Assembly (NCBI GenBank): GCA_905236315.1
Contig: CAJOPO010000185.1
Location: 1 to 5,526, forward strand
Origin: an uncultured Treponema sp.
GTDB taxonomy: Bacteria; Spirochaetota; Spirochaetia; Treponematales; Treponemataceae
Length of the DNA stretch: 5,526 bases
Reading direction: 5' to 3'
This document shows positions 4 to 5,460 of this stretch, one piece after another; positions within the stretch are counted from its first letter, which is position 1; every line of letters begins with the position of its first letter. A model generated the notes under the pieces. It did not search any database and was not told the origin of the DNA. It was given only the letters and a program-made list of their open reading frames with translations. The position numbers and the translations under genes were made by a program.

Positions 4-36
4 GTTGTAAGTCGCGCTATTATAGCGACTTGCAAC
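4..36. repeat. Inverted repeat / hairpin A
   Basis: Two 12-nt arms (4-15 GTTGTAAGTCGC and 25-36 GCGACTTGCAAC) are complementary except for one pair, T8 and G32, which is a G-U wobble in plus-strand RNA and an A-C mismatch in minus-strand RNA. The loop is 16-24. An alternative register pairs GCTAT (16-20) with ATAGC (22-26). The stop codon of the truncated transposase frame falls in the loop. This is directly visible. What it does (terminator, repeat unit, recombination scar) is unknown. The window edge may cut a larger repeat. Confidence 0.8.
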
Positions 37-421
37 TCGCAGGAACCTCGAAAAACTTTCTGAAAGGGAGTTTTTCGAGGTTCCCTACAATGAGTCTTTT
101 AATTTCTCTTGCGAGTACGCTGTCCAGCATGATTTTAGGAATCTGTTCCTTATTTGCATTCTGCTCATTCGCTATGTTCTGTGCGTATTCTGCATTGTAT
201 TCATACACCTCGCTTAAATCACTCTTTACGTGCTTTACCGTACCACGTTTTATTTCATTGTATATTGTCTTTCTGTCACACTTGAAGATTTCTGCAAGTT
301 TAGTTTTTTTCGTAACCTTTTCAATTCCTTTTTTGCCAAGTAGATAACATTCCAAAAGAAATCTTGTCTGTGCATTGAAGCAGATATTTTCTTTTCTCTC
401 CTTTTGTGCTATATTTTTCAT
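20..421 (-). pseudogene. IS30-family transposase, N-terminal fragment
   Basis: This is a 133-residue product. Full IS30-family transposases are usually over 300 residues, with a C-terminal DDE (RNase H-like) catalytic domain that is entirely absent here. What remains is the N-terminal DNA-binding part: a helix-turn-helix around residues 41-62 (KLAEIFKCDRKTIYNEIKRG), followed by the typical tyrosine-rich stretch ending in EYNAEYAQ (about 74-81). Family-like sequence fades after LIVG near residue 113. The last 20 residues (from NLEKLPF to CKSL) are translated from the two hairpin repeats. The start is ATG at 421, because AGGAGGA lies 9 nt upstream; a longer reading from a TTG at 454 would put that site inside the gene. 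The fragment cannot transpose itself. It might still bind the ends of related elements, but that is speculation. The missing C-terminal part could lie outside the window. Confidence 0.8.
42..84. repeat. Perfect 16-bp inverted repeat / hairpin B
   Basis: Arms 42-57 (GGAACCTCGAAAAACT) and 69-84 are perfect reverse complements around an 11-nt loop (58-68). It lies 5 bp from hairpin A, and together the two make a tandem dyad block. On the minus strand the block is translated as the last 20 residues of the transposase fragment, and the recognisable IS30-like sequence stops at its edge. This suggests that the block was inserted into the element or lies at a rearrangement junction. It could also act as a transcription terminator for minus-strand transcripts, but no clean T-run follows the stem outside the arms. 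Confidence 0.85.
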
Positions 422-430
422 AGGTTTTCT

Positions 431-437
431 TCCTCCT
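431..437 (-). promoter_or_regulatory. Ribosome binding site deciding the transposase start
   Basis: On the minus strand this reads AGGAGGA, a strong Shine-Dalgarno match 9 nt before the ATG at 421. It argues against the upstream TTG at 454 as the start codon. Confidence 0.8.
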
Positions 438-459
438 GTTGTTTTGGTGTGCAATTTCT

Positions 460-1351: not shown

Positions 1352-1393
1352 ATAAAAGTGGCTTTGTAAAGAAAGAGGTGGTTGGTAAATAAA

Positions 1394-2203
1394 ATGGATA
1401 ACGAGTCAATAAAGACTATGTTGCTTAATATTCAAGACTCATCGTTAGAATTTTCAGTTTTGCTTACAGGAAAAGAGAGCAAGCGTGTAAATGGCTTATA
1501 TAAGCCAGATTCACGAGAAATTTTATTGCACAACAAAAATTTTAAGACAGATAATGAGTTAGTATATACTGCAATTCATGAATATACGCACCATCTTATA
1601 AATGAAGAGCAAATTGCAGAAAATGGAGGTAAAGAACCGCCTCATAAGGCTCGTAGTCATACGAATTATTTTTGGGCAAAGTTTCATAGCCTTTTAGAAA
1701 TAGCAGAGCAAAAAGGCTTTTATAAAATGGACCTTTCAATTTCTCCTGAGTTGGAAGAACTTACTAAAGAAATTCGCACTAAATATATAGAGCCAAATGG
1801 TCATCTTATGCAGGAGTTTGGAAAGAGTTTAATAAAAGCGCATACTTTGTGTGAACAAGCTAGTATACGTTATGAAGATTATTTAGATAGGGTGTTGCAG
1901 TTACCACGTACAACAGCAAAAACTGTAACACAAGTTGGCACCTTGCCTAAAGAAGATGCTGTCTTAGGCTTTGATAATATGAAGATTGTGGCTAGATTAA
2001 AAAAGCCTGATGAGCGAGCAAAGGCGCAAGACGCTATAAAGCAGGGTAAAAGTCCTGATAGCGTTATTGCTATGATGAAAAAGAAAGCACAAACGGAAGA
2101 CCCTCGTGCTAAGTTAGAAAAAGAACGAGACCGTCTTACAAAAACTATTAGTGAACTTACACAACGTTTAGAATATGTGGAGGAAAGCCTTGCAAATCTA
2201 TAA
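1394..2203 (+). CDS. Putative zinc metallopeptidase (HExxH, SprT/WLM-like) with C-terminal coiled coil
   Basis: The product is 269 residues. The signature is HEYTH at 62-66 (H62, E63, H66), preceded by ELVYTAI, a helix typical of zincin peptidases. H89 in SHTNYFWAKF resembles the third zinc ligand followed by an FW pair (H...FW) seen in SprT/WLM/YgjP-type proteins, so a complete zinc site is plausible. There is no signal peptide, so it should be cytoplasmic. Residues 190-235 are lysine-rich, and 234-266 form a predicted coiled coil (KLEKERDRLTKTISELTQRL), possibly for dimerisation or partner binding. The ATG at 1394 is preferred; AGAGGTGG lies 12 nt upstream, whereas an in-frame TTG at 1382 sits directly against that site. 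It follows rsmE by 42 bp with no terminator between. The substrate is unknown, and SprT-like DNA-protein crosslink repair is only one possibility. Confidence 0.65.
   Translation: MDNESIKTMLLNIQDSSLEFSVLLTGKESKRVNGLYKPDSREILLHNKNFKTDNELVYTAIHEYTHHLINEEQIAENGGKEPPHKARSHTNYFWAKFHSLLEIAEQKGFYKMDLSISPELEELTKEIRTKYIEPNGHLMQEFGKSLIKAHTLCEQASIRYEDYLDRVLQLPRTTAKTVTQVGTLPKEDAVLGFDNMKIVARLKKPDERAKAQDAIKQGKSPDSVIAMMKKKAQTEDPRAKLEKERDRLTKTISELTQRLEYVEESLANL
2179..2185 (+). promoter_or_regulatory. Ribosome binding site deciding a TTG start
   Basis: GGAGGAA lies inside the 3' end of the metallopeptidase gene, with 6 nt between GGAGG and a TTG at 2190. An in-frame ATG at 2175 lies upstream of this site and has no Shine-Dalgarno sequence of its own. 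Starting at TTG also leaves a cleaner signal peptide (QIYK then a hydrophobic run). Confidence 0.75.
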
Positions 2204-3172: not shown

Positions 3173-3841
3173 ATGCAAAGTAAGTTGCAGCAAGGCTTGG
3201 ACACTTTAGGTCTTTTGCAAATTGAAGATTTACAAAGGAAAATGGAAATATATATAGAAGCGGTTCTTGACTTTAATAAGACGTATAATCTTATGAAGGC
3301 TGACACTATGGATGACATGGCAGTAAATCATATATTAGACAGTCTTGCAGCCGTTTCTCATATTAATTCATTAATTCAATCCTTAACGCAACAAAACAAT
3401 ATTGAATCTTTAGAGATTGGCGATATTGGCTCTGGAGGGGGCTGTCCTGGTATTCCTCTAGCAGCAGTTTATCCTCAGCACTCTTTTACTCTTGTAGAAA
3501 GAATGGAAAAGAGATGTTTATTTTTAGAAAGTGTAATAAATAAAATAGGCTTAAAGAACGTAACTGTTCAGTGTGTGCAAGCAGATAAAGTAGAAAAAGA
3601 AAAATTTCATATAGAAGTATTTAGGGCTTTTCATCCATTTGATAAAAAAATAGCAAGGCTTTTGCTTGGAATGTTAAAAAATGGCGGTTTTTTAGTAGCG
3701 TATAAGGCTAGGGCAGAGAAAATTCAAGAAGAAATGTCTAGCCCTGAGGTGCAAAAAATTATCCCTACTTATAAAAAAATAGCACTCACAGTTCCTTTTT
3801 TAGAAGACCATGAGCGCAATCTTGTGGTTATAAAGAAATAA
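3173..3841 (+). CDS. rsmG: 16S rRNA (guanine-527-N7) methyltransferase RsmG
   Basis: The product is 222 residues, normal for the family (about 205-240). RsmG (GidB) transfers a methyl group from S-adenosylmethionine to N7 of G527 in helix 18 of 16S rRNA, and its loss in other bacteria gives low-level streptomycin resistance. Hallmarks are YIEAVLDFNKTYNLM (27-41), NHILDSL (52-58), the cofactor-binding loop DIGSGGGCPGIP (84-95), TLVERMEKRCLFLESV (106-121) after it, and the C-terminal PFLEDHERNLVVIKK (208-222). The usual RAE acidic motif after strand 4 reads QADKVE, and the SRA segment reads VFRAFHPF, both modest departures. The start is ATG at 3173, with AGGAGA at 3155-3160, a rather long 12-nt spacing inside the preceding gene. 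It is the last gene of the operon. Here it sits with rsmE rather than with mnmG, its common partner elsewhere. Confidence 0.93.
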   Translation: MQSKLQQGLDTLGLLQIEDLQRKMEIYIEAVLDFNKTYNLMKADTMDDMAVNHILDSLAAVSHINSLIQSLTQQNNIESLEIGDIGSGGGCPGIPLAAVYPQHSFTLVERMEKRCLFLESVINKIGLKNVTVQCVQADKVEKEKFHIEVFRAFHPFDKKIARLLLGMLKNGGFLVAYKARAEKIQEEMSSPEVQKIIPTYKKIALTVPFLEDHERNLVVIKK

Positions 3842-3917
3842 AAAAGTTTAAATTATGCACATATAAAAAAACAGTTTCTAGTCGCCTCTGCGGATTGAAT
3901 CTGTCGATTACAAAATC

Positions 3918-3931
3918 GAGGGCTAGCCCTC
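3918..3931. repeat. Apical hairpin 1 of the structured element
   Basis: A perfect 14-nt palindrome, GAGGGCTAGCCCTC: a 5-bp stem with a CTAG loop as RNA, or a fully self-complementary site as DNA. Its first two bases also belong to an alternative stem, TCGATT (3904-3909) with AATCGA (3914-3919), which would compete with both this hairpin and the 10-bp long-range stem. Confidence 0.75.
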
Positions 3932-3946
3932 TACACGCCACATTCG

Positions 3947-3967
3947 CACGCCTTCTACGAAGGTGTG
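3947..3967 (+). repeat. Apical hairpin 2 of the structured element
   Basis: CACGCCTTC (3947-3955) and GAAGGTGTG (3959-3967) pair over 9 bp around a TAC loop. One pair is G3950 with T3964, a G-U wobble only if the plus strand is the RNA. Confidence 0.75.
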
Positions 3968-3982
3968 TGTTGTAATTATTTA

Positions 3983-4007
3983 CGTTTGCCGCTTACGCGG
4001 TAGCACG
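3983..4007 (+). repeat. Apical hairpin 3 of the structured element
   Basis: CGTTTGCCGC (3983-3992) pairs with GCGGTAG-ACG (3997-4007) around a TTAC loop, with C4004 bulged. The pairs G3988-T4001 and T3986-G4003 are G-U wobbles in plus-strand RNA and mismatches in minus-strand RNA, the same polarity as in hairpin 2. Confidence 0.7.
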
Positions 4008-4098
4008 AACAGAGTGTTTTTGTAATCCTAAGGATTCAATCCGCTAGTCTCCTTTTCGCTGTTTTTTATATGTGCACTGTAAAACTGATTTCCTTGAA

Positions 4099-5460
4099 CT
4101 AAATTGTAATAGACTTTAATATACGAGTAAGTTGTGCCTTTTCTATAAGGTCAACAGGACGACCTTCTATATATTTATGGGCTTCATCAGAGAAAACCCC
4201 TGCTGTAATGCAATAACCTCTGTCACATTTTACGTCATGCATGTGTCCATGAAAGTCTCTTACATATAACTCGCCAGTAGAACCTGTGGTACGGAAAAAT
4301 CTTAATAATTCAGTATCTTGCCATTTTGTAGTATCTACTTCTGCTAATATATCTGTATATGCAGATGTAACATTTATATCGATAATCTTAACAAAAGAAT
4401 TTTTGTATAGCCCATTAAAGAATTTGCGACATAGTGCCACAAAATCACTTGCTCCTGCTGTTAAATATACTTGTAAATTAGAGTTTTGACTTAATTCTTG
4501 GTATCTTGCTAAAAGAGCATTTACATCTTTATAATTAGCATTTACTTGTTTGATTTTATTTAAATATTCAAGACCTTTTCCGAATTGATTCTTGCTAAAA
4601 AGACACTGGGCATAGCGATACTGCAATTCAAGAAGGACATCTTGTGGTATATTCTGATGTTTTAAACCAATTTCAAAGTCCTGTGCTGCAGCATTGTGGT
4701 CTCCTAGATTCATTCTTTGTGTACCTGCTGCAAGACAAGAACGTGCGCCATAAACAGGGTCTGCACGTAAATGAGAAAAAACTTTCATGGCTCTATCCCC
4801 ATGACCTTCATTTGCCATAGCATCTGCCATATCGAATAACGCTTCTTTGTTTGATGGATTTTCTGTAAGGGCTTTCTTAAAGCATGGCAAACTATCACGG
4901 TAGTGATGTCCCATATAATAACACTGACCTAAAACAAAGTTTATGCCTTCGGCTTCTGGTTTTAATATAAGTGCTTTTTTTAAGCAAGGAATAGCCTTAT
5001 CATATTGTTGCACATTATATAAAGCCTGCCCTAAATAATAATTTGCTTCATAACTATGAGGTTCCTTACCCGCTGCTGTGGTTAACGCTTGAACGGCTTC
5101 TGGATATTTTTCTAATTTTAATGCACAAGTACCATACTTTAATGCAGGTTCAAAAGCATCTATATTGTTACCTGGAACAGCAGAAAGTTTATACAACTGT
5201 TCATATATAGGTATAGCTTTGTCCCAAACTTGACTTGCAAAGTATACATTACCAAGCATAGCAAGACCTTCTGGGTCGCTAGGATTTTTGCCAAGTTTGC
5301 GTTGTGCTTCCCTTACAACTTGAGCCTGAGATTTTGTTTTTTTTGCACCAGAACCTTTTGCGTCGTCTGAATTGGATTTTTTCCCAAATACAACCATGAG
5401 AACAACAATTACAGCCATTACGGCAATTCCAGCGATAAGATAAGGTAATATTGATTCCAT
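4099..5460 (-). CDS. Membrane-anchored TPR protein with Mrr-like (degenerate nuclease fold) C-terminal domain
   Basis: The product is 453 residues. Residues 7-25 form one transmembrane helix (LIAGIAVMAVIVVLMVVFG), followed by a lysine-rich stretch (27-44), so the bulk should face the cytoplasm. About seven tetratricopeptide repeats follow (roughly 67-94, 103-135, 137-169, 171-203, 205-235, 239-270, 276-307; for example YYLGQALYNVQQYDKAIPCL). TPRs are protein-binding scaffolds. The last 115 residues resemble the Mrr/restriction-endonuclease-like fold: DFVALCRKFF (339-348), TDILAEVD (369-376), RFFRTTGSTGELYVRDF (387-403), and RGYCITAGVFSDEAHKYIEG (414-433) followed by RPVDLIEKAQLTRIL. D370 could match the catalytic Asp, but the expected (E/Q)xK reads EVD (374-376), so the nuclease is probably inactive. 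The start is the ATG at 5460; upstream ribosome binding is weak. The gene is monocistronic within the window and convergent with rsmG. Its role is unknown; a membrane scaffold is inferred. Confidence 0.75.
   Translation of the reverse strand: MESILPYLIAGIAVMAVIVVLMVVFGKKSNSDDAKGSGAKKTKSQAQVVREAQRKLGKNPSDPEGLAMLGNVYFASQVWDKAIPIYEQLYKLSAVPGNNIDAFEPALKYGTCALKLEKYPEAVQALTTAAGKEPHSYEANYYLGQALYNVQQYDKAIPCLKKALILKPEAEGINFVLGQCYYMGHHYRDSLPCFKKALTENPSNKEALFDMADAMANEGHGDRAMKVFSHLRADPVYGARSCLAAGTQRMNLGDHNAAAQDFEIGLKHQNIPQDVLLELQYRYAQCLFSKNQFGKGLEYLNKIKQVNANYKDVNALLARYQELSQNSNLQVYLTAGASDFVALCRKFFNGLYKNSFVKIIDINVTSAYTDILAEVDTTKWQDTELLRFFRTTGSTGELYVRDFHGHMHDVKCDRGYCITAGVFSDEAHKYIEGRPVDLIEKAQLTRILKSITI

Follow-up and report, generated by a model that had tools for sequence, protein, structure and literature searches.

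The window analysed here, 5,526 nucleotides long, is contig C185 of an uncultured Treponema assembly (genome G000) that comprises 2.57 Mb in 546 contigs and is 84.5% complete. It carries two convergent genes, gidB (rsmG; 3173–3841, plus strand; PF02527, 126.7 bits) and a gene for a TPR-repeat protein (4099–5460, minus strand), and the 257-bp spacer between them is filled with nested inverted repeats. The outer stem, evident both in the fold and in a comparison of the arms, joins 3856–3873 on the A-tract side with 4059–4076 on the T-tract side; its arms are perfect over 15 bp (3856–3870 and 4062–4076) and reach 18 bp when a one-base bulge is allowed. Within it lies a second stem of 12 perfect base pairs found by arm comparison (3890–3901 and 4033–4044), a part of the stem termed P1 below, and the minimum-energy fold adds a third, of about 10 bp, and at the apex a multiloop with five small hairpins. 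Folded as plus-strand RNA, the 221 bases reach −92 kcal/mol, a value as low as which was found in none of 200 shuffles (mean −49.28, s.d. 4.01; z −10.65), and the minus-strand RNA reaches −83.1 kcal/mol (z −7.57). The perfect arms of 15 and 12 bp and this fold score bear out an earlier note on the same DNA, which had described nested inverted repeats at 3856–4076. The stems of 18, 12 and 10 bp that it listed are present, the first with the bulge just mentioned, but its three apical hairpins are replaced by five in our fold, and its limits stop short of the right end, since the shared sequence runs on to 4096. Its statement that the structure exceeds the needs of a terminator and does not match tmRNA, RNase P RNA, SRP RNA, 6S RNA or group II introns agrees with the Rfam searches, in which no family reached threshold in the window and seven loci searched at E values up to 1 yielded two weak matches, both in L035 and outside its core.

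Other parts of the window deserve brief mention. The last ~60 residues of the TPR protein match Mrr_cat (PF04471, 33.6 bits against a cut-off of 21), an odd fusion. A protein encoded at 1382–2203 (plus strand) contains a HEYTHH stretch resembling a metallopeptidase site and has a weak match to DUF6782 (E 0.029). The contig starts inside another palindromic repeat (1–86), the sequence of which also stands behind a CACGGAAATCAG end in L057 (contig C140). An open reading frame reading out of this repeat (20–454, minus strand) shows weak helix-turn-helix matches (HTH_17, E 0.0078; HTH_38, E 0.051) and presumably resembles the start of an IS30-type transposase.

The spacer sequence is not confined to this site. 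A 251-bp query returned 67 matches at 41 places of its own genome (40 if two pieces on contig C156 form one element), a count that includes copies matching only one end of the query. Contig ends are touched by 23 of the 30 copies fetched; breaks of the assembly within the repeat make many copies appear truncated, and the repeat accounts for many contig ends of this assembly. The better-kept copies are bounded by CACGGAAATCAGTTTT and its complement. With up to three mismatches the 16-mer end occurs 119 times in the genome, as opposed to 44 times for a reversed control, and the longer right end 17 times as opposed to none. Both ends are present in seven elements, of 97, 97, ~105–125, 123, 214, 243 and 308 bp, the interior of the longest differing from the rest. 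Three of the seven are flanked by exact target duplications of at least 8 bp (9 bp in L022, 10 bp in L067 and 8 bp in L056); L068 has a shifted 7-bp match, L008 a 5-bp and L076 a 4-bp match, and L092 has no target duplication. Exact duplications recur in two other genomes, flanking 13 of 20 elements in G214 and 7 of 14 in G066, while none accompanies the six copies of G072, one of which is cut by a contig end. The four elements L057, L059, L062 and L068 share the CACGGAAATCAG ends and have unrelated palindromic interiors.

The copy in the window occupies 3844–4096, with the conserved core on the minus strand, as delimited from the other copies in the genome, the match to the right end and a comparison with empty sites. 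Its right terminal inverted repeat (4075–4096, minus strand) is one mismatch away from CACTGTAAAACTGATTTCCGTG and places the right end 20 bp past the 221 bp described earlier. The left limit is uncertain (~3831–3858): sharing begins at ~3844 in L013 and at 3858 in most copies. No left terminal repeat is recognisable, as 259 of 500 shuffles score as well as the comparison of the consensus end with 3816–3855, and no target duplication is visible at this copy. The neighbouring genes provide the empty-site comparison. Among 29 relatives fetched out of 50 with a gidB match, ten have a convergent TPR gene downstream, and the other 19 have no downstream TPR match within the sequence examined. The gap between the two genes measures −10 to 60 bp in nine of the ten and 176 bp in L115, as opposed to 257 bp in the window; the nine relatives with an empty site are other species rather than strains.

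Short, gene-less copies dispersed over about 40 places (97–308 bp when complete), inverted ends for the family, of which the window copy shows the right one, target duplications and the short gap in relatives together identify the repeat as a MITE, the second of two possibilities that the earlier note had raised, and an ISAs1-family autonomous element for a sister kind of end, described below, points the same way. The stretch in the window is thus a copy of a dispersed MITE family with an altered cloverleaf palindrome, and not a single-copy RNA gene.

The palindromic interior has a history of its own. Weak matches to it in 8 of 38 other genomes led to a conserved cloverleaf core of ~140 nt, of which the window holds an altered copy read on its minus strand. 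An alignment of fourteen cores from seven genomes (A1, 141 columns) shows changes on both sides in 21 of 40 consensus pairs, the covarying structure that would be expected of a non-coding RNA. At its base the core often has an A-tract, followed by a stem with a conserved GGAG/CGAC element and the long, variable stem P1; then comes stem P2, closed off by hairpin P3 together with a conserved strand of the AACGTATATAATTACAAG type; the remainder consists of hairpin P4, often with a T-tract after it. The GGAG, P3 and CGTGTAG stretches are highly conserved, although conservation in P3 and the loop is partly a matter of choice, because the cores of collection A2 were gathered by a pattern covering these; P1 and most of P2 lie outside that pattern. 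Short tandem copies of a P1 stem unit of the GATTGAATC type occur in L020, L024 and L030, a pattern as expected from stem slippage.

The genus-wide core model matches the window at 3891–4042 (minus strand; 47.3 bits, E 9.8e-12). Fold, core alignment and model agree on hairpin P4 (GAGGGCTAGCCCTC) at 3918–3931 and hairpin P3 at 3987–4002, and part of the conserved single-stranded loop lies at 3971–3984 (minus strand; alignment and model). The score is low because one P2 arm has given way to a hairpin module at approximately 3938–3970, as delimited against L022 and L008, two canonical copies. These two copies in the same genome keep the canonical form (137.2 and 76.4 bits), while most copies of the genome, as read by eye, have the altered arm. 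Palindromic repeats of another kind in G001 and G011 (L034, L053) also contain this hairpin module.

A covariance-model search in which at most 16 candidates per genome were scored found the core in 109 of 200 genomes of the genus (44 of the 85 good ones), in up to at least 16 copies per genome. Across the phylum, where at most eight candidates per genome were scored and copies per genome are therefore at-least figures, it was found in 28 of 392 genomes and 3 of 166 genera, all in the family of the window. A pattern scan of named genomes gave 84 stretches, and 79 of the 80 listed are titled Treponema or Spirochaetaceae; they come largely from rumen and omasum assemblies and include Treponema ruminis RU1, whose cores score highly, and the one titled Richelia (L217) has no core match. 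One core with its flanks had no blastn match among phages and plasmids, and viral contigs gave no match to the loop pattern or the CAGGG end; two viral-contig matches to the CACGGAAATCAG end are not flanked by paired ends and seem fortuitous. L176 and L190, from RUG13083 and RGIG2619, have a core copy at a common site, 22 bp ahead of a gene that we take to be coaBC-like; as this site is shared by two species, some copies may predate their split. Pairs of cores ~240–345 bp apart on one strand occur in G059, G080 and G155 (L255, L256, L257). The literature search, as far as the accessible text of its sources goes, found nothing on such a repeat in Treponema.

What could have dispersed these copies? 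The core lies within at least three kinds of ends, CACGGAAATCAGTTTT, CAGGGCAAACGCATTATAA and AATGTCGAGTTTTGAA, the kind being assignable for 59 of 92 cores. Flank pairing, tested in 80 of 82 copies, exceeds the 95% score of mispaired flanks in 45. Median core identity within a genome is 0.891 for the same ends (231 pairs) and 0.874 for different ends (205 pairs), and between genomes 0.809 for the same ends (285 pairs) and 0.754 for different ends (866 pairs); RUG13083 supplies most of the same-genome pairs, and the comparison also contains species divergence. The cores therefore follow the genome at least as much as the ends. Genome G214 contains a candidate mobilising element. Its 20 elements with CAGGGCAAACGCATTATAA ends fall into lengths of 147–149 bp (two), 214–216 bp (twelve) and 335–336 bp (six); the exact junction duplications counted above are of 9–10 bp, and five further elements have a near or shifted match and two have none. 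The genome has 22 matches to PF01609, and twelve of these copies span 1278–1279 bp between ends CAGGGCAAACGCATGTAAAAA, with exact 10-bp duplications in six of the twelve. Their 388-aa transposase matches NF033564 (ISAs1 family transposase) at 349.7 bits against a cut-off of 70, and this element and the MITEs of the CAGGGCAAACGC kind in G214 have common CAGGGCAAACGCAT ends. An ISAs1-family insertion sequence is thus the putative helper found for one kind of end.

For the ends of the window's own kind the case is less direct. PF01609 has no match in G000, an assembly 84.5% complete, and no pair of CACGGAAATCAG ends at insertion-sequence distance occurs among the listed places of G000 and G072. 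The PF01609 locus of G072 (L334) was considered as a helper and rejected, as it has no pair of MITE ends. From the length of the duplications and the CA with which the end starts, we infer that an ISAs1-like transposase may also serve the CACGGAAATCAG ends.

The copies with damaged cores are informative about the role of the palindrome. The 335-bp class of G214, with six copies, has another repeat inserted in the core, and exact duplications flank four of them; P2 and P3 are missing from both short copies, one of which has an exact 10-bp duplication (the sequences read out for core damage were two of the long copies and one of the short). The exact duplications of G066 are 10 bp long and include those of a 78-bp copy without a core and of the 148-bp L388. 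Altogether, core-less or interrupted copies with exact duplications are L313, L314 and L316–L318 in G214 and L388 and L399 in G066. Copies with a broken or missing core have still moved, and the core is therefore not needed for movement. The second repeat inside the core of the 335-bp class has ends of the AATAAGTT type (L314, L315), and similar ends are also present in repeats of G001.

A structured RNA is commonly considered proven by strong covariation across species, and the earlier note had entertained an undescribed one. The pairing statistics provide a test of this reading, with the caveat that the cells counted are not independent of one another. In RNase P of the genus (30 sequences, 82 columns), 154 of 2415 cells are G-T and 18 are A-C. 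Consensus cores of eight groups, each of three or more cores and one of them mixing three unassigned loci, contain 309 Watson–Crick, 3 G-T, 1 A-C and 5 other combinations in 318 cells. They are the better test, because the decay of dead copies by itself gives equal G-T and A-C. Unique core arms, from 164 of 173 aligned cores, have 96 G-T and 76 A-C (12/12 in P2, 9/6 in P4, 68/53 in P1 and 7/5 in P3). Alignment A1 taken alone, with 14 sequences and an RNAalifold structure, points in the opposite, RNA-like direction, with 16 G-T and 5 A-C of 557. Overall, the excess of wobble pairs over A-C displayed by the RNase P control is not seen in the consensus cores or the arms. A conserved, covarying cloverleaf does exist, but it is dispersed and its G-T pairs are far below those in RNase P of the genus, which speaks against the structured RNA of the earlier note.

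The pattern of changes suggests another source of complementarity. Within six genomes, paired double changes outnumber single ones in P2 (52 vs 11) and slightly in P4 (23 vs 18), the reverse holding in P1 (38 vs 112), and RUG13083 has four versions of P2, each paired on both arms, in 35 of 43 copies. In L388, a single instance, the right arm reproduces the left arm of the same element without a mismatch over 50 bp, and the element has the exact 10-bp duplication noted above; L392 is identical to it over the first 98 bases and has an ordinary right arm, and the perfect arms of 33 other elements, by the same fixed-end measure, span 0–22 bp. Twelve G214 copies examined for selection in situ differ too little to tell. 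The available text of Monttinen and Loytynoja 2022 (PMC8794818), a study of RNA genes, describes hairpins created and kept by template switching, and fold-back template switching of this kind would give discrete multi-base changes on both arms, as in P2. We thus read the covariation of the stems as a likely trace of DNA arm copying and not as proof of RNA, and we infer that such copying may be its general cause. Arm copying alone is insufficient, given the pairing of P2 and the conserved GGAG, P3 and CGTGTAG.

We consider it probable that the window holds a left-eroded MITE copy, likely spread by a transposase in trans, and that the complementarity of its cloverleaf stems from DNA arm copying and not from selection on RNA. 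A transposase acting in trans on the inverted ends would spread the non-autonomous element, fold-back template switching at replication would copy one DNA arm from the other and keep the core complementary, and the A-tract, stem and T-tract of an inserted copy would form a candidate two-way transcription terminator. That the site is nothing else than a large two-way terminator between convergent genes is very improbable: many copies do have an A-tract and a T-tract at the stem base, the neighbours here converge, and 3700–4250 holds three terminator-like sites against a mean of 0.3 in shuffles, but the repeat is dispersed, with copies also where the flanking genes are codirectional or divergent, related copies have transposon ends and duplications, and nine relatives lack it at the same place. 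If the core were instead a functional structured RNA on the window's minus strand, with the MITEs as its vehicles, RNA selection would keep the pairing; the changes on both sides of 21 of 40 pairs, the conserved loops and junctions, the presence in 109 of 200 genomes, one core within several kinds of ends, P2 pairing maintained in individual copies and the G-T to A-C ratio of 16 to 5 in A1 would all fit. We nevertheless regard this as unlikely in view of the scarce G-T pairs (3 of 318 in the consensus, 96:76 over arms vs 154:18 in RNase P) and of the altered P2 arm in most copies of the window's genome. Nor does the core keep company with a gene: among 464 open reading frames around cores no cluster stands consistently at the core, one cluster of eight lying across the core itself. 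Neighbour orientations (17, 17, 16 and 10) reveal no strand preference in 60 of 82 copies, six that overlap a reading frame of at least 100 aa and 16 without a neighbour being left out.

Near-perfect complementarity without strand preference, together with conserved unpaired stretches, would also suit a single-stranded DNA hairpin to which a transposase or a protein of the host binds, much as with REP elements or folded recombination sites. This appears quite unlikely, as copies without an intact core have moved with exact duplications and the core is not associated with the Y1 transposase PF01797 (core present in 29 of 54 genomes with it and 80 of 146 without), of which G000 has no match. A broader alternative, to which we attach some weight while doubting it, makes the cloverleaf an independent unit, either selfish or of use to the host, that moves across the genus from one transposon shell to another, unrelated one, its inner stem and loops being selected as folded single-stranded DNA or as an undescribed RNA.

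How does the family, read as a MITE with copied arms, relate to known systems? MITEs of the ISAs1 family, like the sister kind in G214, are short, gene-less and multi-copy, with CAGGGCAAACGCAT ends and 10-bp duplications; the window's kind differs in ending in CACGGAAATCAGTTTT, in having no helper found for it in G000, and in an interior formed by a conserved cloverleaf that is also found within other kinds of ends. REP and REPIN sequences are dispersed intergenic palindromes with conserved unpaired bases, associated with RAYT transposases. The present family is likewise dispersed, intergenic and palindromic with conserved unpaired bases, but has inverted ends, 9–10 bp duplications and, for one kind, a DDE-type helper; identity with RAYT/REPIN was rejected on the Y1 comparison above. 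The core shares with HEARO (omega RNA), a mobile structured RNA, its dispersal, structure and covariation, but has no linked protein, nearly no G-T pairs and no match in Rfam, the searched library of which presumably includes HEARO. In P2 and L388, perfect stems and changes of several bases on both arms recall the template-switch hairpins in the available text of PMC8794818, which concern RNA genes, whereas the present hairpins belong to mobile DNA for which no RNA is known.

The novelty lies in the family itself, a genus-wide palindromic core unmatched in Rfam that is housed within several kinds of transposon ends, one of them with an ISAs1 helper. The covariation of this core looks RNA-like, while it pairs like DNA. 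Covariation in mobile DNA without the expected wobble pairs makes arm copying testable as a source of look-alike RNA families, and the Treponema of the rumen gain a repeat family that Rfam does not list, one kind of which has a putative helper identified.
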